From Candidatus Fermentibacterota bacterium (lineage in GTDB: Bacteria > JAFGKV01), in NCBI GenBank assembly GCA_016928395.1, contig JAFGKV010000138.1:1-49460 (forward strand): 49,460 nt of DNA, read 5' to 3'. Below, one piece after another: positions 28,569 through 41,463 of the stretch (its first letter is position 1; each line of letters begins with the position of its first letter). The position numbers were made by a program, and so were the translations under genes. The notes beneath the pieces were generated by a model. It did no database searches and was not told the DNA's origin. It saw only the letters and a list, made by a program, of their open reading frames with translations.

Positions 28569-31500
28569 CTACCGAAGAAGAGTCATGCGCCTCGTCGCGG
28601 TCACACCGTCAGCCTCCGCCCGGCACACGTAGATTCCGGAGGGCAGGAACCGACCCGACTCGTCCGCGCCGTCCCATTCATGAACGATACTCTCCGACTG
28701 CGCGAACTCCTCGCCCCGTAGCTGTCGAACCCGCCTACCCTGGAGGTCGAAGACTCCCAGGGACAGGAGACACGGCCCGTGCACCGACACCAGAATGGTG
28801 GTACGGCTGTGGAATGGATTCGGTCTATTCTGGCCCAACCTGACCGCGTCAGGCCGGGGCTGACACTGCCCGGATACGGCAGATTCCGCCACCTCCAGAT
28901 GCCGGTTGACCGGCAGGTTTGTGAATACCTCCATGCCGCCCCGGGGCCAGCAGATGACCAGAGAGTCCACCGTGCCGGCTTCACCCAAGCCGAAGTGGAC
29001 CGCCATCTGATTCTGGCCGCATGCGCCGGTCTGGCTGGATATCTCCCGGAATTGCCACACAGACTGGCCGCCGATGTTCGCCTTGACCCGTACCGTGGCG
29101 CCTATGGCAGAGGAGTTGGCCCTCGTACCCCGGCATTGAACGGTCAGCCAGTTGTTCTTCGTGCCGGTATTGCGAAACAGAGAGGTAGTCTCCGTGCGGC
29201 CGAAGCAGCGAGCAACCGCCAGATCCAGATGGCCGTCGCGGTCGAAGTCGCCCCAGGCTGCCCCATAGCCCCATCCGCGATGCGCCGCTACCGGCCCCGT
29301 CATGACCCGGGCAAAGCTGCCGTCGCCATTGTTCAGGTAGAGGAAGTCAGCCAGGTCTTCGCCTGGATCCTGGCTGAAACCATTGGCCACGAAGAGATCC
29401 AGATCGCCGTCATTGTCAAAGTCGCCCCAGGCGCTGCCGATGGAGTAGCCGCGGTCATTGACGACGCTCCCCGACATGACCCGGGCGAAGGTGCCGTCGC
29501 CGTTATTCTTGAAGAGGAAGTTGTTCTGGTCACCCCAGTTGGCCACGAAGAGATCCAGGTCGCCGTCATTGTCGAAATCACCCCAAGAACTGCCGAATGA
29601 CCGCCCGCGGGTGGTGACCACCGGCCCGTCGGGGATCATCGTGAATGAACCGTCGCCGTCATTGCGGTACAGGGAGTTGTACTCATTGGCCTCATTGGCC
29701 ACGAAGAGGTCCAGGTCGCCGTCGCCGTCATAATCGGCCCAACTGACGCTGCGGGAGTGGAAGAGGTCGGTCACGATGGCGCCTTCGGTGATCGTGGTGA
29801 AAGCGCCACCGCTTCCCCGGTACAGGAAGTTGCATTCCGCTTCATCCGGTCCCGAGTTGGCAACAAAGACGTCCAGCAGGGCATCGTTGTCATAGTCTGC
29901 CCATCCGCAGGTCTCTGAGTGCCCGCCATCGGTAGCGACCGGACCAGCGGAGATCCGCGAGAACGAACCATCGCCGTTGTTGGAATAGAGGAGGTTGTTC
30001 TGACCGTACCAATTCACCACCAAGGCATCAAGATCGCCGTCATTGTCGAAGTCGGCCCAAGAGGAACCCACGGAGCTGGACCCGTCATTTACAATGGGAT
30101 CGCCACTCACCGATGAGAACGCCCCGCCTCCTTCATTGCGATAGAGCCTGTTGTTCTGACCGCCCTGGGGGCCGTTGGTGATGAAGAGATCCAGAAGGCC
30201 ATCGGTGTCAAAATCGATCCAATTGACGCTGCGGGAATCACCCTGGTCGTCTGCCAGGATGCCGGACGCGCCCTCGGCGAACTGCTCGATGCGTAACGCG
30301 ATTTCCAGCGGATTGGGCGTTGCCGGGTCATTATGATAGAGTGACAGCGTACCGAACATGGGACCGGCTTGCGTGGGAGCCCAGACACTCAGCACGGTCT
30401 GGGAATCGAACGCCGGGATAGTCGCTGGGATGGATGAAATGACGGTGATCACCTCGCCCACATCGTCGCTTATCTCAGCTCTCTCTATGACTACCGCTCC
30501 GCTGCCCGTCGATTGGACAGGGATACTCAGGGTATCCCTGGAGCCAGGCTCGACAAACGAGAACCGAAACTCCGAGGCAGGCAGCGAGATTCTGGGCCTG
30601 CTGAACGAAGCCAGCAGCGGCCAAAGACGTCCGCCGTAGGCGCCCATGTCGCGACGAAGACCTCCCATGGCGGGATAGCGGGCCATTCCGGGAGAAGACG
30701 GATCCTCGGGATCAGGAATCGAAGCGGGATCGCCGGTATCCACGCAGGGGGAGGAATAGGTGAGGTAGAGATTCATCGTATCGAAGAGCGGGTGGGCATC
30801 CACGTTGCCCATACCCTCCCATCCTCCCTGGACGTCGCAGTAGGTCAGATCGGCCGAGCCTCCTGAGAGGCTGATCTGGTGACCGGATGCACCGGAGGTA
30901 TTGCCCCAGAGGATATTGTGACTCCCCGTGATGGCCGTGGCCCACACCCGGATGCCCCCGCCTTCCAGCGCCGAAATGTTGCCCGTGATGGTATTGCCCT
31001 CGACCATGGTAGGCCCCACCTCGTACAGCCAAATGCCCGAACCGCCGTAATCCTCGCCGCCTTCATTGTCACAGATGACGTTGCCGACTATGCTCCCGGT
31101 ACAGAAGTTCATCACAATGCCGGCGCCGTACCGTCCCCGGTTTCCCGCGATGACGTTCCCGGTGATCAGCGGATTCGCGTCGCCGCACCGGATGCCGCCT
31201 CCGCCGGCGCTTACCAGCCCCGTATCGTCCGTAGCCTCATTGTCCACGATGAGATTGTGGCGAATCACCGGGGAGGCCAGCTCCACCAGAATACCGCCGC
31301 CCTCGCGGTAATCCTGGCTAAGGTGGGTATCCCTCCACACGGTGCCGGTACCCCCGGTGAGCGTGAAGCCCTCCAGCACCGCCGTCGAATCCTCGCCCGA
31401 GACGATGAGCACGCAGCTTGCCGTGTCGGGATGCGCGGGATTCGACCCGTCGATGATCGTCTGCATGATATGATCGGGATTACCATCAACGATGAAGTGG

Positions 31501-31694
31501 CTGGCCAACACGAGGTTGCGGCCGCGGAAATTGATGTTCTCCCGATAAACACCCGGTGCGACGAGAACCGTATCGCCGTGGGTCGACGCGTTGATGGCGG
31601 CCTGAATCGTCGTGAAGTCAGCAGGGACATATCTGGTCGTCGCATCGGCGCAGATGGCAAAGGATGCGGCAAGGAACAGAGCGATGAGGCGCAT
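28569..31694 (-). CDS. Secreted beta-helix/VCBS/ASPIC protein with sorting domain
   Basis: The 1041-residue protein has a signal peptide (about 1-18), a right-handed parallel beta-helix (about 20-330; TIQAAINASTHGDTVLVAPG is typical of pectate-lyase-like surface proteins), an Ig-like choice-of-anchor module (about 370-475), and seven VCBS/FG-GAP repeats (about 480-860) with the calcium loops DFDNDGDLD. An ASPIC/UnbV domain (about 870-945) and a C-terminal sorting domain (QNRPNPFHSRTTI, then VFDLQGRRVR and LPSGIYVCR) follow. It is probably displayed on the cell surface. The start is ATG 31694 with GGAGGA 4-5 nt upstream, 27 nt after the sigma factor stop. Confidence 0.85.
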   Translation of the reverse strand: MRLIALFLAASFAICADATTRYVPADFTTIQAAINASTHGDTVLVAPGVYRENINFRGRNLVLASHFIVDGNPDHIMQTIIDGSNPAHPDTASCVLIVSGEDSTAVLEGFTLTGGTGTVWRDTHLSQDYREGGGILVELASPVIRHNLIVDNEATDDTGLVSAGGGGIRCGDANPLITGNVIAGNRGRYGAGIVMNFCTGSIVGNVICDNEGGEDYGGSGIWLYEVGPTMVEGNTITGNISALEGGGIRVWATAITGSHNILWGNTSGASGHQISLSGGSADLTYCDVQGGWEGMGNVDAHPLFDTMNLYLTYSSPCVDTGDPASIPDPEDPSSPGMARYPAMGGLRRDMGAYGGRLWPLLASFSRPRISLPASEFRFSFVEPGSRDTLSIPVQSTGSGAVVIERAEISDDVGEVITVISSIPATIPAFDSQTVLSVWAPTQAGPMFGTLSLYHNDPATPNPLEIALRIEQFAEGASGILADDQGDSRSVNWIDFDTDGLLDLFITNGPQGGQNNRLYRNEGGGAFSSVSGDPIVNDGSSSVGSSWADFDNDGDLDALVVNWYGQNNLLYSNNGDGSFSRISAGPVATDGGHSETCGWADYDNDALLDVFVANSGPDEAECNFLYRGSGGAFTTITEGAIVTDLFHSRSVSWADYDGDGDLDLFVANEANEYNSLYRNDGDGSFTMIPDGPVVTTRGRSFGSSWGDFDNDGDLDLFVANWGDQNNFLFKNNGDGTFARVMSGSVVNDRGYSIGSAWGDFDNDGDLDLFVANGFSQDPGEDLADFLYLNNGDGSFARVMTGPVAAHRGWGYGAAWGDFDRDGHLDLAVARCFGRTETTSLFRNTGTKNNWLTVQCRGTRANSSAIGATVRVKANIGGQSVWQFREISSQTGACGQNQMAVHFGLGEAGTVDSLVICWPRGGMEVFTNLPVNRHLEVAESAVSGQCQPRPDAVRLGQNRPNPFHSRTTILVSVHGPCLLSLGVFDLQGRRVRQLRGEEFAQSESIVHEWDGADESGRFLPSGIYVCRAEADGVTATRRMTLLR
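29222..30262 (-). repeat. VCBS coding repeats, period about 155-170 bp
   Basis: Seven degenerate direct repeats run through the gene. Each encodes a (A/S)W(A/G)DFDNDGDLD calcium loop followed by LYRN and GDGSF. Conserved cores lie near 29225, 29397, 29550, 29708, 29872, 30028 and 30189. They encode the blades of a beta-propeller and mark internal duplication. Confidence 0.8.
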
Positions 31695-31721: not shown

Positions 31722-32606
31722 TCAGTTGTAGGATAGGACCCGCTGGAAAGGGATCTGGTCGATGGTATCGCGCAGGATCCGGACGAAATCGGGGGAACGG
31801 TAGAACGGTTGATCTCTGATGAATTCCTCGCTTCTGGCCAAGGCCTCATCGTCCATGACCTCGAGTTCATGACGGGCCATCTCCTTGATCCGAGCCGTGT
31901 CGCCGGAAGCGAACAGCAGTCGGCCAGGCGAAATATGACCTGCCAGAATCAGTGCCTGAGCCTTCCGGGCACAATGGCACGGATTCTCAGGACGAATCAG
32001 CCCGCACTTCTCATCCATGAATTGCGAGATCTTCCTGCGGCCCCGGCTCAACTTCTGCCGGAAATTCTCGCTGCTGATGCTCATGATCGCCGATCCCGTG
32101 CCGGCGTCGGCGCCCAGCATGGCGCCAAGAATGAACGCCAACCGGTGGCTTCTATCCAGACACAGGATCATGCCCATCATGCACGAGAGTCTCACTTCCT
32201 CCACGATGAGGCCAGCGTCGACGGGTAGGCCCTCTGGATCGGGCGGATCCATGTCCGGGGTCGCGTCGATGCTTGCTCCATAAGCCGCGAACGAAGAGAA
32301 CACCCGCTCCGACCGGCGTCTGCGCATGTTGGCCACATGATTGGATAGTATGCGATAGAGCCATGTCCGGAAACTGCTCTCCCCCCGGAATGAAACCAGC
32401 CGAGTCAGCATCTTGATGAGGATCTCCTGCGTGACGTCCTCTGCATCCTCGGGGAGCCAGACCATCCGCAACGCGACGTTGTCGATCCAGCTCTGATGCC
32501 TGTGGATCAACTCCTCCAGCGCCTGCCTGTCTCCGCCCACAGCCTTGGAGACCAGCGCTCGATCCTCGCCATCTCTGGTGTGCAGATTCACCAGTGAATC
32601 GTCCAT
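31722..32606 (-). CDS. ECF-type sigma-70 factor with Cys-rich C-terminal tail
   Basis: The 294-residue protein has sigma region 2 (about 25-95: EDAEDVTQEILIKMLTRL, SSFRTWLYRILSNHVANMRR) and region 4 (about 140-195: CMMGMILCLDRSHRLAFILG, ISSENFRQKLSRGRRK). Region 4 is followed by CGLIRPENPCHCARK (Cys201, 210 and 212) and a C-terminal domain of about 80 residues. Together with Cys142 and Cys149 these could form a zinc site. No anti-sigma gene is adjacent. The start ATG 32606 has GGAGGAG 4 nt upstream. The beta-helix/VCBS gene lies 27 nt downstream, so the two are likely cotranscribed. Confidence 0.88.
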   Translation of the reverse strand: MDDSLVNLHTRDGEDRALVSKAVGGDRQALEELIHRHQSWIDNVALRMVWLPEDAEDVTQEILIKMLTRLVSFRGESSFRTWLYRILSNHVANMRRRRSERVFSSFAAYGASIDATPDMDPPDPEGLPVDAGLIVEEVRLSCMMGMILCLDRSHRLAFILGAMLGADAGTGSAIMSISSENFRQKLSRGRRKISQFMDEKCGLIRPENPCHCARKAQALILAGHISPGRLLFASGDTARIKEMARHELEVMDDEALARSEEFIRDQPFYRSPDFVRILRDTIDQIPFQRVLSYN

Positions 32607-33050
32607 GGTTCTCCTCCCTCCCACGTCGCTCCTCCCTTTGGACACCGAAACCGCCCGAGTGTGACAGGGGGCATAGATTCTCTCAATGGGCATTCTCCGG
32701 CGGAATCTATGTGCGACCAGGACGAGGCGCGATCTGGGACGGCTGGCCCTGGAGCGAGCCGAGACCACACGCAGTGCCGATCCCTGTGGGAGCAACCTGG
32801 TTTCAGTGCCCGCAGCCGCACACCTGATGTCCATTACCGGACTGCAAAGACGAACGCGGTACCTCGAGTCTCCGTGTACGCCAGTAGGGACCCCCGGCAC
32901 GGAAGTTGCCGGTATGGTATCTATTCGGTCTCTCCTGGGATCGGCCATCCCTTCTCGGTGGCCGTACAGAGGTGCCCGATCGCCGTGCTCCCGTCGACAC
33001 CTTCGCGGCCCGGTTACTGAACTGGTCCATGCAACCATCTGGAGGCCTCA
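32607..33050. other. Divergent intergenic region, about 440 bp
   Basis: This gap separates the sigma factor from the divergent FG-GAP/PKD/LamG gene. It holds the 9-bp inverted repeat at 32672-32711. A GGAAGTT element near 32898 followed by CGGTCTC is faintly ECF-promoter-like, but the spacing (18) is poor. No small gene was found. Confidence 0.5.
32672..32711. promoter_or_regulatory. 9-bp inverted repeat in sigma factor leader
   Basis: CATAGATTC at 32672-32680 and GAATCTATG at 32703-32711 are perfect inverted copies separated by 22 nt. They lie 66-105 nt upstream of the sigma factor start. The centre-to-centre spacing of 31 nt is about three helical turns, compatible with a looping or tandem-dimer operator, or with a leader hairpin. 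Confidence 0.45.
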
Positions 33051-35711
33051 ATGGAACGCGCCTGTCGACTAGAACCCTGTCGCTATTGCCCGTCCCCACT
33101 CAAGCCCTTGCTGATGGGCATGCTAATCCTCGCCTTGGCAGGTCCGGCTTTCGCTACCCATGTCGCCATGTCGCCGGATCCGGTGTGGCAGGTGACCGGG
33201 ACGATCCCCACCGGGGTCGGCTGGGCTGACTTCGATGCAAACGGCTGGCTGGATCTGGTAATCACCCATGGGCTCGATGTGATTGCCAGCCCCGATGCTG
33301 TGTACTTCAACACGGACGGAATCCTCTCCTTCACACCGGGATGGATCTCCGAAGCCTCACTGCCTTCGGCCAATGTGTTCCTCGGTGATCTAGACAATGA
33401 TGGAGATCCCGACCTTGCGGTCTCGAGTTTGGGGATCACGTCTCAGGGCCTGCCCCCGGTGCCCCATACAATCTATTTCAACAATGGCGGGCTCCCACCA
33501 AATCCTGACTGGGTCTCGCTGCCCGGCAATGCCTTTTCGTGCGCCGGCGGTGATGTAGACGGTGACGGCGATATCGACATCGCGTTCGGCCAGGGTGATT
33601 TCGCCACCAATCACTTCCAGAAGACTGTGCTCTACCTCAATGAGAATGGTGACTTCGGCCAGTCGCCGACCTGGGAGACCGCCGATCTGCTCCACAGCGC
33701 GGAAGTCGCCTTCGCGGATGTCGACCGTGACGGCGACCTCGATCTGGCGCTGGGAGGACGCAATTCGTTCGGCCTGGCAATCTTCTTCAATGACCAGGGC
33801 ATTCTGGAAACCACGCCCTCCTGGCAAACCAGCGCGGTCATCACGGGCCGTCAGATGGCCTTCGGCGACGTGAACGGCGATGGATTCCTTGACCTTGCCG
33901 TGGCCGGCGGCGCCCAGAGCTTCTTCCTGTTCAGGAATATCAACGGCACCCTGGAGACCACGCCTTCCTGGTCGGCCGTTGCGGGCGGTGAGCCGTCGGC
34001 CGTTGCCTGGGCCGATGTTGATGGTGATGGGGATCTCGACCTGGCTGCCGGCGGATGGTACCCTCCCATGGGGATCTTCGAGAATGTGAACGGAACCCTT
34101 TCCTCCACGTTCGTCTGGTCCTACAACTGCGGCGTACAGCAGTTCGCCTGGGGTGACTTCGATGGTGATTACCTGGTCGACACGGTGTCGACGATCACGG
34201 CCGATGGGGCGTCGGGGCTCTTCTACCTCGACCATCGGCCCATTCACCGTCTAAACTGGGTGGCCCTGAACGGCCTCCCGCTTCCGCTCGACCAGTTCTG
34301 CCATGACCCTGTGGAGGGGTGGCTTTCTCTGGGAATGGTCCCCCAGGCCGGTGATACACTCACAGTCTCCTACAGCCACTCCAAGGATCTGGATCTTGCA
34401 GTCACCGACGCCAGTCAGACCCGCATCTTCAGTAATCTCAAGCCAGTACCACCCTTCGTAGTCCCCGACTTCGAGGCAGCGCCGTGTACAGGTCACGCCC
34501 CCTTGGCGGTGCAGTTCACCGATCTCACCTACGCCGAACCCGCCATCGTCGCGTGGTCATGGGATCTCAACGGTGACGGGATCACCGACTCACAGGTACA
34601 ACATCCGGCCTGGATCTATGACTCGCCGGGATCGTTCACAGTCACACTGGAGGCATCCAATGGGCTGACTGCCGCCATCATCGAGAAGGAAGCCTGCGTC
34701 AACGTGTTCTCTGGCGAGAGCGCCGTGGCGTTCGACGGCAACTCGGGCAACGTCCGCTGTCCAGCCTCCCCCAGCATGGCCATCAGCGACGCAGTGACCG
34801 CTGAGGCGTGGATCAAACCTCAAGGCTGGGGAGAAGTGCCCACGACCGGATTCGGCCGAATCATCGACAAGACCAACTTCGCCCTCTACCTGCACGGGGA
34901 AGGCAGTGCGTACAATCAACACAGCATGGTGTTCCTTCTGCGCAACACGAACGGCCCTCCGGTGGTACTCACCACACCCCCGGGAAGCATTCAGTTGGAT
35001 GCCTGGCAGCATGTCGCGGCGACCTACACCGCCGCCACGAGCGAGGCCGCCGTCTATCTGGACGGGATGCGCCAGGACCTGAATCAGGTCAACACACCTG
35101 CCGGGCCCATAAAGGACAATCTGGGAATCGATCTTCTGATAGGCACCAATCCGGCATCCCTGAACACATTCGACGGGGCCATCGACGAGGTGAGGCTCTG
35201 GAACGTGGCGAGGACAGCGCAGGAGATTGCTGCCGATCGTCTCCACGGGCTCACCGGTGGTCAACCCGAGCTAGTGGGCTACTGGCGTTTCAATGAAGGC
35301 AATGGCGTGTATGCCTTGGATGGATCGGCCAATGGCAATAACGGGGTCATCAGCGATGGGCGCTGGGTGCTGGGTGCACTCGACCCTTCAGCCGCCATAC
35401 CGCCCGGCCAGGGCGCCTCGGCCATTCCTCAGAGGCTCACACTCAGCCTGGGATGGCCGAATCCGTTCGCCGTGCACACGACCGTGCTATGTGACCTGTC
35501 CACCGATGCAACCGTGACGGCTGCCGTGTACGACATGAATGGCCGGCTCGTGCGAAGCCTGTGCCGGTGCGAATGGCCCGCGGGACCACACAGCATCGTG
35601 TGGGACGGCACGGACGATGCGGGCTCGGCCGTGGCATCCGGCGTCTATTTCTGCGGTGTGACCGCAGGTGCCGAAGCGGCTCGGCGCGTCGCTCTCGTGT
35701 GTGTGCGCTGA
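33051..35711 (+). CDS. Secreted FG-GAP/PKD/LamG protein with sorting domain
   Basis: The 886-residue protein has a signal peptide (about 1-35, ending AFA). A propeller of FG-GAP/VCBS repeats follows (about 45-470; loops such as DLDNDGDPD, DVDGDGDID, DVDRDGDLD). Next are a PKD domain (about 485-570, APLAVQFTDLTY and WSWDLNGDGI), a LamG/concanavalin-like domain (about 575-780, ending IDEVRLWNVARTAQEI and GYWRFNEG), and a C-terminal sorting domain (LGWPNPFAVHTTVL, VYDMNGRLVR, VASGVYFC). Such modules bind glycans or proteins at the surface. ATG 33051 has GGAGG 5 nt upstream. It is divergent from the sigma factor gene. Confidence 0.86.
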   Translation: MERACRLEPCRYCPSPLKPLLMGMLILALAGPAFATHVAMSPDPVWQVTGTIPTGVGWADFDANGWLDLVITHGLDVIASPDAVYFNTDGILSFTPGWISEASLPSANVFLGDLDNDGDPDLAVSSLGITSQGLPPVPHTIYFNNGGLPPNPDWVSLPGNAFSCAGGDVDGDGDIDIAFGQGDFATNHFQKTVLYLNENGDFGQSPTWETADLLHSAEVAFADVDRDGDLDLALGGRNSFGLAIFFNDQGILETTPSWQTSAVITGRQMAFGDVNGDGFLDLAVAGGAQSFFLFRNINGTLETTPSWSAVAGGEPSAVAWADVDGDGDLDLAAGGWYPPMGIFENVNGTLSSTFVWSYNCGVQQFAWGDFDGDYLVDTVSTITADGASGLFYLDHRPIHRLNWVALNGLPLPLDQFCHDPVEGWLSLGMVPQAGDTLTVSYSHSKDLDLAVTDASQTRIFSNLKPVPPFVVPDFEAAPCTGHAPLAVQFTDLTYAEPAIVAWSWDLNGDGITDSQVQHPAWIYDSPGSFTVTLEASNGLTAAIIEKEACVNVFSGESAVAFDGNSGNVRCPASPSMAISDAVTAEAWIKPQGWGEVPTTGFGRIIDKTNFALYLHGEGSAYNQHSMVFLLRNTNGPPVVLTTPPGSIQLDAWQHVAATYTAATSEAAVYLDGMRQDLNQVNTPAGPIKDNLGIDLLIGTNPASLNTFDGAIDEVRLWNVARTAQEIAADRLHGLTGGQPELVGYWRFNEGNGVYALDGSANGNNGVISDGRWVLGALDPSAAIPPGQGASAIPQRLTLSLGWPNPFAVHTTVLCDLSTDATVTAAVYDMNGRLVRSLCRCEWPAGPHSIVWDGTDDAGSAVASGVYFCGVTAGAEAARRVALVCVR

Positions 35712-36233: not shown

Positions 36234-39200
36234 CTACTGCAGCCGCACCACCATGCTCTCGGAAGTGCCTGCCCCGGTGACGAATCTGCCGAGGTACACT
36301 CCGCTGGGCAGGTTCTCGGGAACGACACCCAGAGAGTGGTTACCCCTCGACAGGGTCCCGAACCCATGGCACAGGACAATCCGGCCCGACAGGTCATAGA
36401 TCTCAAGGCGAACTGCAGACTCTTGGGGCACGCTCAGCAGCCACGAAAGCCTCTCGTCGCTGGGATTGGGCCACGGGCCCTCGACGCGTAACGCCTCCAC
36501 CAGCGGCGCAGACCCATCGCCGGCTGCCACCAGCACCGGCTCGACATCGTCGAGACAGAAAAACCCCGATGATCCCGAGCCGTCACACGACCAGGCGAAC
36601 ACAATGTTGCCGCCCTCGGTCTCTATCGTGAAGGGCAGGACTAGTTCGGTGTAGTTGCTCTGGTCGCCCGTAAGCGTCAATTGGGCCAGCGTCTCTTCGC
36701 CTCTTTTCGCGCTGACTTGCACAGTATCCTGTCCCAGAGACCAACAGGCCTGGAACCGGAGCCTGACCTGGGATCCGCATACGAAGGACATCGGCGGCAT
36801 GGTGGCCATGCTGCCCGAGACTGCCGGATCCAGCACCAGAAGCCCCCGCCCGGTGGCCGGCGGATAGACTCCGTCCGCAGTCGCCCAGCGCCAGGCACCC
36901 GAGAGATTCCAGTAGACCGGCGGGAGTTCGAAACCCTCACCCACCGGCCCAGAGGTGAACCACGACCAGATCTCGTCGTTCCATGCCTCTCCGTCGCCCA
37001 AAGCCTCGGCGCGGAAAAGAACCTTGAACCGTGCGCCGGCAGGAGGAACCGGCACGATGGGAAACTCCACAACTCCCGACTCCTCGGGGTCAGCCAGCAT
37101 CGTGGTGGTATAGACCTCGTCGCCGTCCTCCTCGGTGACCTCCACTGTGACCGGCACCAGACCCACGTTCTCCGCGCCGTTGTCGCACAGCGTTACCATG
37201 CCCCGCACCGTGGTTCCCTCAGGACCGCTGTCCAACGGCAATATCATAGCCCGAAGCGCCGCGTCTCTCACCGGCTGTTGTTCGGAGATGTTGAGCAGAC
37301 CCGGCACGGCGGGCAGGCGCTGCAGAAGCCCGCTGGGCCACGCCACGGTGATCACGGGATTGGCGCCCACTGGCCCCAATGGCAGCGTCGCCACCGGCGG
37401 TCCTTGCCCAAGACCGCACCCCTCGCCCACGATCCGCCCCAGCGACGAGACATCGCCGCTGAGCGTGACCCCGGCGAGAAGCCCGTCGCGGGAGCTGCTC
37501 GACCCCTGGAGTGTGACACGTACGGACTGCGGACTCTCACTCAGGTTGAGTAGCAGTTGATCGCCGCCTGCGCGGCCAACGTAGATGTCCTCGTCACCAT
37601 CATTGTCGATATCCGCCCAGGTAACCACCCAGCCCTGGTTCGTGATTGTCGCGCTCTCGGTGGCGTCACCGAATGTGCTCCCGAGGTTCCGGTAGAGCGC
37701 GTTTCGCTGCACATTGCACACGTACAGATCCAGCAGCCCATCACCGTCGAAGTCGCCCCAGGCCGCTGAGGATGAGCTTCTCAGGTCCTCGAGACCGGAA
37801 TCGACGACTCTGACGAAACCTCTGCCTCGGATGTTTCGGTAGAGCGTGTTGGGCTCGCCGCCGTTAAAGGATGGCCCGATATTGGTCACATAAAGATCAG
37901 GCCACCCGTCATTGTCATAGTCGCCCCACCCACACCCCGTGGAAACCAGCGCATCATCACCGAGACCCAGTTCCAGGGCGCAATCCGTGAAGGTCCCATC
38001 ACCGTTGTTCACGTAGAGGGCATTGGGCGCCCCGCCATATCCCGCGCCGCAGTTAGCCACACACAGATCCAGGTCTCCGTCCCGGTCGAAGTCTGCAAAC
38101 GCGGCGGCGTATGCGCTCACCGTACCGGCGACGCCGGCTGCGGACGAGACCTCCGTGAAGGTGCCGTCGCCATTGTTATGGAAGAGTTGCCACGGCTGTT
38201 CCTGGTGAGCGATGAAGAAATCCAGCCAGCCGTCATTGTCATAGTCGCCCCACACTGGGGTGAAGTTCTTCTGAGCGGTTGACGCAATCCCGGCCTGGGC
38301 GCTCACATCGGTGAAGACCCCTGCGCCGTTGTTCTTGAACAACGCAAGCCCCGCCATCGTGCCATGGAGTAGATCGGGAACGCCATCATTGTCATAGTCG
38401 CCCCACGAGGCGCCCTGCCCTTTGCCAGTCATCGGGAGATTCGACTGAGCAATGACGTTCACCAGGGTGTCGCCGTCATTACGGTACAGGGCGTGGTCAA
38501 AACTCCAGGCCGCACGGTAGAAATCCAGGTCGCCATCGTCGTCCATATCTGCGAAGGCAACGGTATGGGCCTTGCTCGTAGTTGCCAAGCCCCAGTCAGA
38601 CGCCGCGTTTGCGAAGAGCTGCACCGCCATGGGGATGGAGAAAGGCAGTTCTTCGCTGTGGCCCCCGTCGGCATACAGGGTCAAGACGAACTGCACATGG
38701 TACCCGACTTCGGCATCGGCATCCACGGTGACCGCCACTCCCTGCAAGGCCACGGCCACCGAATCAGTCTCGATGGCGCCGAAGTTGACGGCGGAGCTGT
38801 CGACATGAACGTGAGGATCGTCGGTGCTGAGATACCCCGTCACGATTGAGGCGGGCGCCCAGAAATTCCTGACACGGAAGTTCAGCGCCGCTGCTTCGCC
38901 CGGTCCGAGAAGGCCGTCACCATTGCCGCTGGCCGAATCCTCCACCACGACTTCGATGAGACGCAGTGTCGGGTGCGGTGATTCGACAAGAGCCCGATAG
39001 CCATTGACCCGGCCCGAACCCAGCGTACCGCGATACTGGGGATTGATGATATCGATGGGATCGGCAGTGCCGGTCAGCCGGTAATACAGTTCGGTATTGG
39101 AAAGCTCCGGGTAGCGGCTCAGCACCAGACCGGCAACACCAGCCACATAGGGGCATGATGCCGAGGTGCCTGCGAAATCCGTAATGAAGGCGTCGTCAAA

Positions 39201-40352
39201 CGCCGTGGTCCAAATGCCGACTCCCGGCGCCGCGATGCCGACCCAGAGGCCGAAATTGGAGAAATCTGCCCTGATGTCGCCCCACTGTGTGGCGGCTACC
39301 GAGAGCACTTCCTGATATGCCGATGGCGTCTGCCAGTTATCAGAGTTGTCATTGCCGGCCGATGCCACAAGGAAAACGCCGGCGGCATGAGCGTATTGAA
39401 CCGCTTCGTGAAGTGCTTCACAGTCAGGGTTTCTCCAGCTCATGGACAGGATGTCAACGCCATTATCGGCCGCGTAGTAGAACGACTCGACTATGTCGGA
39501 AGTGATGCCCCCCGAACCCTCAGTTGCGGAGTAGAGAATCTTGAGCGGCATGATGGCGCAATGCCAGGCAGTGCCCGCCACCATGAGGCCATTATCGCTC
39601 ACCGCGGCGGCGATGCCTGCCGTATTGGTACCGTGGCCGCCGAAATCCATGGGATCGGGGTCAGGAGGAAAACCGTCTTCGCCAGGCTCAGGATACTCAC
39701 CGGTGATGAAGTCCCACCCGATGACGTCGTCTACATAGCCATTGCCGTCGGCGTCGGCACCGTCCAGATCGCCGCCCTCGCCCGCGGGATAGTTGTCGAA
39801 GCGACCGTTGCCATTGGCGTCTTCAGCGGCATTGATGTAGATATTCGCAGCGAGGTCGGGATGATCCCAATCGCACCCGGTATCGCTGATAGCAATCACG
39901 ACGTTCCGCGAGCCAGTCTCGACATCCCACGCTTCTGGCATGGCCATGAGTGCCATGGCATACTGCTCGGGCAAAAATGGATCGTCCGGAGTCGCCGTCA
40001 ACGTGGCGTAGTAATCAGGATGGGCGTAGATCACTCCCTGGCATGCTTGCAGCCCCCCGCACACATCCTGCGGATCAATTGCGGCACCATACCGAACAGC
40101 AATGAGGCCGTCTGAGCCAAAGCCTCTGCGCAACGAGGCATTGATACCGTCGCCACGGGGGCGTGCGATTCGGCGGATTGTACCCACCTGCAACTCGTCG
40201 ATCAGCCTGTCCAGGGGTTCAATCCCTGTTCCGGCGCCGGATACGAGATGAGCGGCAATGGAGGGATCCACCTTGGCGATGAACCTGCCGGGGGCGTACT
40301 CGGCGGCATTGAGTGTACCGGTAAGAAGTAACAGGAAGATGAAGCGACTCAT
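36234..40352 (-). CDS. Secreted subtilisin-like protease with VCBS, ASPIC and sorting domains
   Basis: The 1372-residue protein has a signal peptide (about 1-17), an inhibitor-like propeptide region, and an S8 protease domain with Asp157 (AISDTGCDWDHPD), His240 (GGHGTNTAGIAA), the oxyanion Asn334 (ASAGNDN) and Ser397 (GTSASCPYVAG). A DANGNGRFD and ADGNGYVDD insert resembles a calcium site. VCBS repeats follow (about 600-930), then an ASPIC/UnbV domain, a CARDB- or MAM-like module with paired Cys, and a C-terminal sorting domain (GPWPNPSDERLSW, IYDLSGRI, LPSGVYLGRF). The start ATG 40352 has GAAGGAG 5 nt upstream. All three catalytic residues are intact. Confidence 0.9.
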   Translation of the reverse strand: MSRFIFLLLLTGTLNAAEYAPGRFIAKVDPSIAAHLVSGAGTGIEPLDRLIDELQVGTIRRIARPRGDGINASLRRGFGSDGLIAVRYGAAIDPQDVCGGLQACQGVIYAHPDYYATLTATPDDPFLPEQYAMALMAMPEAWDVETGSRNVVIAISDTGCDWDHPDLAANIYINAAEDANGNGRFDNYPAGEGGDLDGADADGNGYVDDVIGWDFITGEYPEPGEDGFPPDPDPMDFGGHGTNTAGIAAAVSDNGLMVAGTAWHCAIMPLKILYSATEGSGGITSDIVESFYYAADNGVDILSMSWRNPDCEALHEAVQYAHAAGVFLVASAGNDNSDNWQTPSAYQEVLSVAATQWGDIRADFSNFGLWVGIAAPGVGIWTTAFDDAFITDFAGTSASCPYVAGVAGLVLSRYPELSNTELYYRLTGTADPIDIINPQYRGTLGSGRVNGYRALVESPHPTLRLIEVVVEDSASGNGDGLLGPGEAAALNFRVRNFWAPASIVTGYLSTDDPHVHVDSSAVNFGAIETDSVAVALQGVAVTVDADAEVGYHVQFVLTLYADGGHSEELPFSIPMAVQLFANAASDWGLATTSKAHTVAFADMDDDGDLDFYRAAWSFDHALYRNDGDTLVNVIAQSNLPMTGKGQGASWGDYDNDGVPDLLHGTMAGLALFKNNGAGVFTDVSAQAGIASTAQKNFTPVWGDYDNDGWLDFFIAHQEQPWQLFHNNGDGTFTEVSSAAGVAGTVSAYAAAFADFDRDGDLDLCVANCGAGYGGAPNALYVNNGDGTFTDCALELGLGDDALVSTGCGWGDYDNDGWPDLYVTNIGPSFNGGEPNTLYRNIRGRGFVRVVDSGLEDLRSSSSAAWGDFDGDGLLDLYVCNVQRNALYRNLGSTFGDATESATITNQGWVVTWADIDNDGDEDIYVGRAGGDQLLLNLSESPQSVRVTLQGSSSSRDGLLAGVTLSGDVSSLGRIVGEGCGLGQGPPVATLPLGPVGANPVITVAWPSGLLQRLPAVPGLLNISEQQPVRDAALRAMILPLDSGPEGTTVRGMVTLCDNGAENVGLVPVTVEVTEEDGDEVYTTTMLADPEESGVVEFPIVPVPPAGARFKVLFRAEALGDGEAWNDEIWSWFTSGPVGEGFELPPVYWNLSGAWRWATADGVYPPATGRGLLVLDPAVSGSMATMPPMSFVCGSQVRLRFQACWSLGQDTVQVSAKRGEETLAQLTLTGDQSNYTELVLPFTIETEGGNIVFAWSCDGSGSSGFFCLDDVEPVLVAAGDGSAPLVEALRVEGPWPNPSDERLSWLLSVPQESAVRLEIYDLSGRIVLCHGFGTLSRGNHSLGVVPENLPSGVYLGRFVTGAGTSESMVVRLQ
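37580..38560 (-). repeat. VCBS coding repeats in protease gene
   Basis: Degenerate direct repeats encode successive (F/W)(A/G)D(F/Y)D(N/R)DG(D/W)(L/P)D loops followed by LYRN or LFHNNGDGTF. The period is about 160-190 bp and roughly seven copies are seen. They correspond to beta-propeller blades, as in the gene at 28569-31694. Confidence 0.7.
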
Positions 40353-40395
40353 AACGACTCCTTCGGTGAAGCTCACGCGTGAGACCCTGCGCGCG

Positions 40396-41463
40396 CTATT
40401 CCTCATCAAGACACCATGACACCCACCGGCCATAGCGGCCCAAGGCAGTCACCGCCCAAATCAAGGCCAGCATCCCGGCCAGCATCGCCGCGGGGCCGGG
40501 GCGTTGGATGAACTCGATGCCGGGAAGATCTCTGGGAAAAGGAATCATCGCCAGCAGCAGGTAGACCCCCAGGCCAAATCCGACGAGTACGACCAACGAT
40601 ACCAGGCAGGCCATGTACCGTGAGGGACTACGGCGAATGAGCGAAAAAAGAACGGTCGGATCCAGGCTCATGAAGGGACTCCCGGTTCGAAACAGAACCG
40701 CGATGATAAGAGGCATGAGAGCGATCAGACCGGCAAGAGCCACCAACAGCGCGATGGACAAAATGCCCGAATACGACGCCGACGGCTGGGCCTCGCCCGA
40801 GGGAGCAGGCTCGCCGCTGGGAACGAGCACCACGTAGAGCAGCACGACGAGTAGCCCTGGCGAGATCATGAGTTTCATCAGCCGACCCGCGATGAGGCCG
40901 GGTCCTCCTCCCAGGCTCCACGGGGCGGGCGGCCGAGGCCGTTCATGCTCCGCCGCCAAATACAGGGCCCACAGGTAAGGTATAAAGAACAACAATGCCA
41001 CAGGCCAAGCCACGAAGTTGAACACGCCCCACGCCAGGAGCCATACCGCCCCGAGCCCTGCAAAGGGATAGACCAGAATCGAGAAAAGCTGGTGATCCGT
41101 AGGTGGGGGCTCAGGCATCGGAGGAGGAGGAGGGGGCTTGCGGATCGAGCCTGAGCGCCGAGTCGACCCGGGGGCCGGCGCAGCGGCAGCAGAGGGGGCA
41201 TCCTCTTCGACGTCCGTGCACATGCCGCCGCAGTGAGCGCAGAATCGCACAAGCTCTCCACTCATGAGCCGATCGGGGGCGCATTCCTCGCACAGAAGCT
41301 TGCCACACGCTGTGCACAGAAACGGAGCGATCGTGCCTGGGTGGTAGTGGCACTGCTTGGAACCGGGCGGGAGTGTGGGACCGACGGCGGGAGGTGGCTC
41401 GGCCGCGGGGATGAGCCGAACGCTCTGCTGTTCCCAGTCTTCCGAGCCACTGTCTAGAATCAT
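40396..41463 (-). CDS. Zinc-ribbon/B-box multi-TM protein
   Basis: The 355-residue protein has a cytoplasmic N-terminal zinc finger of the B-box/ribbon type (CHYHPGTIAPFLCTACGKLL then CEECAPD and CAHCGG, at least six Cys and two His). A Pro-rich linker (about 95-125) is followed by about six membrane helices (two between about 125 and 175, then helices near 205, 245, 300 and 335). I do not recognise a named family; similar B-box membrane proteins are often called uncharacterised. The start is ATG 41463, with GAGGTGG close upstream. It ends 43 nt before the protease start on the same strand, suggesting an operon. Confidence 0.75.
   Translation of the reverse strand: MILDSGSEDWEQQSVRLIPAAEPPPAVGPTLPPGSKQCHYHPGTIAPFLCTACGKLLCEECAPDRLMSGELVRFCAHCGGMCTDVEEDAPSAAAAPAPGSTRRSGSIRKPPPPPPMPEPPPTDHQLFSILVYPFAGLGAVWLLAWGVFNFVAWPVALLFFIPYLWALYLAAEHERPRPPAPWSLGGGPGLIAGRLMKLMISPGLLVVLLYVVLVPSGEPAPSGEAQPSASYSGILSIALLVALAGLIALMPLIIAVLFRTGSPFMSLDPTVLFSLIRRSPSRYMACLVSLVVLVGFGLGVYLLLAMIPFPRDLPGIEFIQRPGPAAMLAGMLALIWAVTALGRYGRWVSWCLDEE

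Follow-up and report, generated by a model that had tools for sequence, protein, structure and literature searches.

ECF sigma factors of the ECF41 group (SigJ, Ecf41Bli, Ecf41Rsp) function without an anti-sigma factor, carry a regulatory C-terminal extension and have a single adjacent target gene, in either order (PMC3426412). Their promoters read TGTCACA-n16-CGTC, and a small molecule is suspected to play a part in their control (PMC3426412). CorE, CorE2 and OrbS, whose responses are to Cu, Cd/Zn and Fe(II), carry cysteine clusters at the same place as the sigma factor described here (PMC3107203, PMC8999054, PMC9023288).

We analysed a window of 49,460 nucleotides from a Candidatus Fermentibacterota bacterium; it is contig C178 of a 4.79 Mb genome in 343 contigs, from a phylum represented by only three genomes in our collection. 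An ECF sigma factor gene lies on the minus strand (31722..32606). The 294-aa product has sigma2 at about residues 12-100, sigma4 at about 131-200 and a C-terminal cysteine tail at 201-294. That the protein is of the ECF type, as originally predicted, was borne out by a Sigma70_r2 match (PF04542, E 2.6e-14), by a sequence search of solved structures that returned sigma factor chains, and by a predicted model (mean pLDDT 87) with a sigma2+sigma4 fold and the sigma4 helix set. The protein has sigma2 and sigma4 only, without sigma1.1 or sigma3, the composition of ECF (group 4) sigma-70 factors, and the DAED motif of sigma2, whose loss marks the phosphorylation-activated EcfP/ECF43 type, is intact at residues 54-57. 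The start had been set about 430 bp too early: the 438-aa reading frame (31722-33038) is a mechanical extension back to the previous stop. We place the start at ATG 32606 because homologues align from about residue 1 of the 294-aa protein onwards, a ribosome-binding site (GGGAGGAG) lies immediately 5' of this ATG, and a conserved promoter ends 31 nt upstream of it.

We searched 386 genomes from across the domain with a family profile built from five homologues. Family members were found in 11 of these, all at E values of 2.4e-75 or better; the next match (9.8e-34) was a generic ECF sigma factor. Members were also present in 9/95 genomes of the phylum of genome G087 and in 24/195 genomes of that of G030, and on plasmids of Leptospira, Runella and Enterococcus, where they are annotated merely as 'RNA polymerase sigma factor'. 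A pattern scan of genome contigs added one relative, from a metagenome-assembled genome (MAG L020), and viral contigs yielded generic sigma matches only. In the phylum of G030, two reading frames (L093, L095) continue from the sigma factor without a stop into a cysteine-rich or SnoaL-like second protein; these are either real fusions or frameshifts in draft contigs.

Thirty nucleotides beyond the stop codon of the sigma gene begins the gene for a secreted partner of 1040 aa (28569..31691, minus strand), with a signal peptide, a beta-helix, FG-GAP/VCBS repeats, ASPIC/UnbV and a FlgD-like C-terminal domain. The original prediction was right that the sigma gene lies directly upstream of a VCBS/beta-helix gene on the same strand, although the gap to the ATG is 30 nt and not 27. 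It depended on orthologues being linked to such genes, and linkage was found: at eight loci, which represent at least three phyla, the sigma factor and a beta-helix gene are adjacent on the same strand, a recurrence that exceeds chance. The sigma gene comes first in the window genome (G000), G002, G060 and MAG L020; in G032, G179, G314 and G386 the order is reversed, and the sigma gene either overlaps the beta-helix gene slightly or follows it after a few bases. Within the 386 genomes, the beta-helix subfamily occurs in nine, three of them without the sigma factor, and the six that have both genes have them adjacent in every case (6/6). G001, of the window's genus, has neither gene and no promoter, in a genome only 82% complete. 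Since the eight linked sigma factors form one supported clade (98/96) that contains both gene orders, the link arose a single time, persisted and underwent one rearrangement. Our search of the open-access literature found no description of an ECF sigma factor paired with a beta-helix protein.

Only the beta-helix part of the partner (residues 1-365; 30597..31691, minus strand) is conserved in all eight linked loci. Among the partners scanned, those of G000 and G002 alone carry the FG-GAP/VCBS propeller; that of G060 has a dockerin, and most have T9SS- or FlgD-like C-terminal sorting-type domains, some of them weak matches, while the L020 partner had no Pfam match. The proposal that the locus switches surface propellers was therefore not upheld, and we rejected FG-GAP propellers as the regulated feature because they are absent from most partners. 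Downstream of the G060 sigma gene, on the same strand, two tandem beta-helix genes are followed by a VCBS/FG-GAP gene (L055, 1768-9480); these genes possibly form a longer operon with the sigma factor.

Inspection by eye of the upstream regions revealed a shared promoter motif. In the window, a -35 element TGTCACA (32660..32666, minus strand) and a -10 element GTCCAA (32638..32643, minus strand) are separated by a 16-bp spacer, with the -10 element 31 nt before the sigma ATG, and both elements are conserved across loci. TGTCACA-N16-GTCYAA precedes the first gene, whichever of the two that is, in 8/8 linked operons, always with a spacer of 16; the match is exact in seven, and that of G386 is one mismatch off. 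Dinucleotide shuffles gave an exact site in 0/2000 for any locus. Judged from its sequence, the layout is that of an ECF promoter. This promoter and the conserved pairing are our main result, and neither was part of the original prediction.

The site is close to unique in these genomes. An exact match occurs once per genome in G000, G002, G032, G179 and G314, always at the linked operon, and in G000 (4.8 Mb) it is still the single site when one mismatch is allowed. G060 has two exact sites; the second, from which the next gene on that strand is about 1 kb away, is probably due to chance. One-mismatch matches were overall no more frequent than those of a reversed-pattern control, a search that found no larger regulon; with the promoter unique in the genome, there is therefore no visible regulon. 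Unlinked beta-helix paralogues in three related genomes carry a version of the site 30-40 nt before the ATG (CGTCACA-N16-GTCTAA in G314, TGTCACA-N17-GTCCAA in G032 and TGTCACG-N17-GTCTAA in G179), and the beta-helix genes of three genomes that lack the sigma factor have no such site.

Family members with no beta-helix link also have the site upstream, including those of G087, G178, others of the phylum of G087, and Enterococcus raffinosus, in which an exact TGTCACA-N16-GTCTAA lies 46 nt upstream of the sigma gene (L121). Near versions occur with a 17-bp spacer in part of the phylum of G030 and, in G275 and on the plasmids of Leptospira and Runella, before the gene that precedes the sigma gene. 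Of the more distant members, about half lack a promoter of this kind within 300 nt. From this association we infer that the window sigma factor reads TGTCACA-N16-GTCYAA. The ECF41 promoter TGTCACA-n16-CGTC (PMC3426412) is nearly the same as the site here, which raises the question of whether another sigma factor, such as an ECF41-like one with the same -35, reads the promoter and the window sigma factor acts elsewhere. We consider this very improbable: seven linked genomes were searched and contained no ECF41 sigma factor above the TIGR02957 cut-off, and the promoter site tracks the family of the window sigma factor across phyla.

The absence of an anti-sigma gene next to the sigma gene, as first noted, was confirmed at the locus. 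Fusion to a membrane anti-sigma factor, with a zinc-finger anti-sigma domain and transmembrane helices as in the ECF48/52/53 types, finds no counterpart in the protein either: there is no anti-sigma Pfam match, and residues 201-294, read by eye, contain no long hydrophobic stretch. A conventional arrangement, in which an anti-sigma factor encoded elsewhere holds the sigma factor and several targets exist, the beta-helix gene among them, is formally possible because none is adjacent, and the genome has many other ECF sigma genes (19 matches). We regard it as improbable, as across many phyla the family retains a single local cargo gene but no common anti-sigma factor, and the promoter is unique in the genome, with no regulon to be seen. 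The cargo itself varies: in other lineages, MFS transporters, a CMD protein, a SnoaL protein, a polyketide-cyclase-like protein, an alpha/beta hydrolase, ydhR and DUF2461 are encoded beside the sigma factor. In several genomes of the phylum of G087 (L056, L083-L089) an MFS transporter gene directly follows the sigma gene, and the same promoter lies upstream of the sigma gene in most of these loci. The Enterococcus raffinosus plasmid carries a Bacillota member of the family (L121, 2992-3858) whose end is overlapped by a DUF2461 gene; this member is a relative well suited to laboratory work.

This arrangement resembles that of ECF41 in several respects. Like ECF41, the window sigma factor has no anti-sigma gene next to it, has a C-terminal extension and has one adjacent putative target in either order; a TGTCACA -35 and a 16-bp spacer precede the first gene, with essentially a single target per genome. 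The diverse cargo of its family in other lineages is also reminiscent of ECF41. Unlike ECF41, its tail is a cysteine-cluster extension rather than a SnoaL domain, for which there was no Pfam match; the -10 element is GTCYAA rather than CGTC; and the cargo is a secreted beta-helix protein rather than a COE enzyme. By domain, the window sigma factor is not an ECF41 member. In G030, a family member and an ECF41-like sigma gene of the SnoaL type are arranged divergently (L058, 9466-11387).

The sigma factor contains exactly five cysteines, C142, C149, C201, C210 and C212, and the C-x8-C-x-C motif of the original prediction is present directly after sigma4. The C-terminal extension (residues 201-294; 31725..32006, minus strand) opens with C201-x8-C210-x-C212. 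We aligned 38 family members that are 25-54% identical to the window sigma factor: C201, C210 and C212 were invariant, as was C142 in the first helix of sigma4 (codon 32181..32183, minus strand). By contrast, C149 (codon 32160..32162, minus strand) is kept in near relatives only, being invariant in an alignment of 13 and replaced in distant members among the 38. Ligation by all five cysteines had accordingly been overstated, and a four-cysteine site is the natural reading of the sequence motif. Because it is invariant in 38 members, the tail motif is a trait of the family and not a feature of the window locus alone.

As in CorE and CorE2 (formerly ECF44, now ECF238), the cysteine cluster directly follows sigma4, there is no anti-sigma factor, and there is cysteine on the sigma2-sigma4 side too. 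The details differ: CorE has C-X4-C-X2-C-X-C and a CXC in the linker, whereas the window sigma factor has C201-x8-C210-x-C212, no CXC in its linker and, in the first helix of sigma4, C142 as the one invariant cysteine, and it does not have the CorE2 variant of the pattern either; moreover, the targets of CorE are metal-handling genes, rather than the gene of a secreted beta-helix protein. OrbS (ECF243) also has a cysteine cluster that begins at the end of region 4.2, where it serves as an on-board anti-sigma device (PMC9023288). The short tail of OrbS bears C-X2-C-X3-C-X5-C, its activity is inhibited by Fe(II), and its targets are siderophore genes (PMC9023288); this cysteine spacing is absent from the end of region 4.2 of the window sigma factor. 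The plasmid-borne sigma factors of Leptospira, Runella and Enterococcus, members of the same family, all have the tail motif of the window sigma factor, and the Enterococcus one also has the same promoter. Their neighbours are ydhR-like, DUF2461 and hypothetical proteins, with no beta-helix partner.

Structural comparison was carried out on the predicted model. Residues 201 and 210 are joined by a beta-bridge, consistent with a knuckle-like loop in the model, and the 80 residues beyond the cysteine cluster are less conserved and modelled as helical. The best structural matches, over residues 12-201, were the ECF sigma factors SigW and CnrH, both in their anti-sigma-held states (SigW, Z 17.7, 1.8 A over 153 residues; CnrH, Z 16.1, 2.2 A), and the model as a whole failed to superpose on RNA-polymerase-bound sigma factors (about 27 A). 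A control model without the tail had an equally closed sigma2-sigma4 shape (Z 18.5), and we therefore rejected the closed model as support for inhibition by the tail. The closed shape says nothing about the tail, so the argument for a sensor function comes from conservation and analogy. The earlier suggestion that the tail does the controlling draws on conservation only, through the four cysteines invariant in 38 members. From conservation and by analogy, the cysteine tail is plausible as a controller of the sigma factor, and we infer metal or redox sensing.

The invariant cysteines may, however, be purely structural. The same two-gene module could use the cluster as a zinc site that does no more than stabilise the sigma4 tail, with control lying in the first activation of the operon by another regulator or in the binding of a small molecule or protein by the remainder of the tail. 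Such a site would likewise be expected to have four near-invariant ligands and a knuckle-like loop, the remaining 80-residue tail is helical if less conserved, and the cargo elsewhere is diverse (MFS, CMD, SnoaL, hydrolase), as in ECF41 with its suspected small molecule (PMC3426412). Set against this, cysteine clusters at the same position sense metals in CorE, CorE2 and OrbS (PMC8999054, PMC9023288), and we hold a purely structural role to be rather unlikely, if by no means negligible.

The reading that we favour, and think probable, is a self-contained, autoregulated two-gene module with a tail that, like those of CorE and OrbS, probably acts as a sensor. That the module is self-contained, as originally proposed, is strongly supported by the pairing in eight loci and by the promoter unique to the position before the operon. 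Unaccompanied by an anti-sigma factor, the ECF sigma factor would recognise one type of promoter, TGTCACA-N16-GTCYAA, before its own operon, and would therefore make more of itself and of its beta-helix cargo. Its own C-terminal extension would probably set its activity. There, C201, C210 and C212 closely follow the helix that reads the -35; together with C142 they could coordinate a metal ion or make up a redox pair, and this site could fix sigma4 in a permissive or a non-permissive state. A ligand could activate the sigma factor, like that of CorE, or inactivate it, like that of OrbS. Because the sole genomic promoter of the predicted type precedes the operon, the sigma factor and its partner have the look of a portable on/off unit, self-contained and dedicated to a single surface protein. 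We put forward only tentatively a more specific version, possible although on balance doubtful: a one-protein sensor-switch, in which a Cys4 site directly reads cytoplasmic metal or redox state and turns on the sigma factor and one secreted beta-helix surface protein through the sole genomic promoter. Sigma factor, tail and promoter would then be a chassis that serves a different single cargo gene from one phylum to another.

For an ECF family that is widespread and uncharacterised, the promoter, the target and the sensor site are thus all predicted at once. The ECF41 way of working, with one sigma factor, one local target and no anti-sigma factor, would be used by a second family with a different tail as its putative sensor, and a beta-helix surface protein of poorly known phyla is tied to a specific candidate control element. 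For synthetic biology, the locus points to a candidate orthogonal sigma-promoter pair whose site occurs once in the genome.

On its other side the sigma gene is divergent, as first described, from an FG-GAP/PKD/LamG gene (33051-35711, plus strand), which starts 444 nt away. This gene has no counterpart beside the sigma factor in the related loci and no TGTCACA promoter before it. Also near the locus, on the minus strand (36234-40433), the window encodes another large secreted protein, an S8 subtilase fused to FG-GAP repeats.
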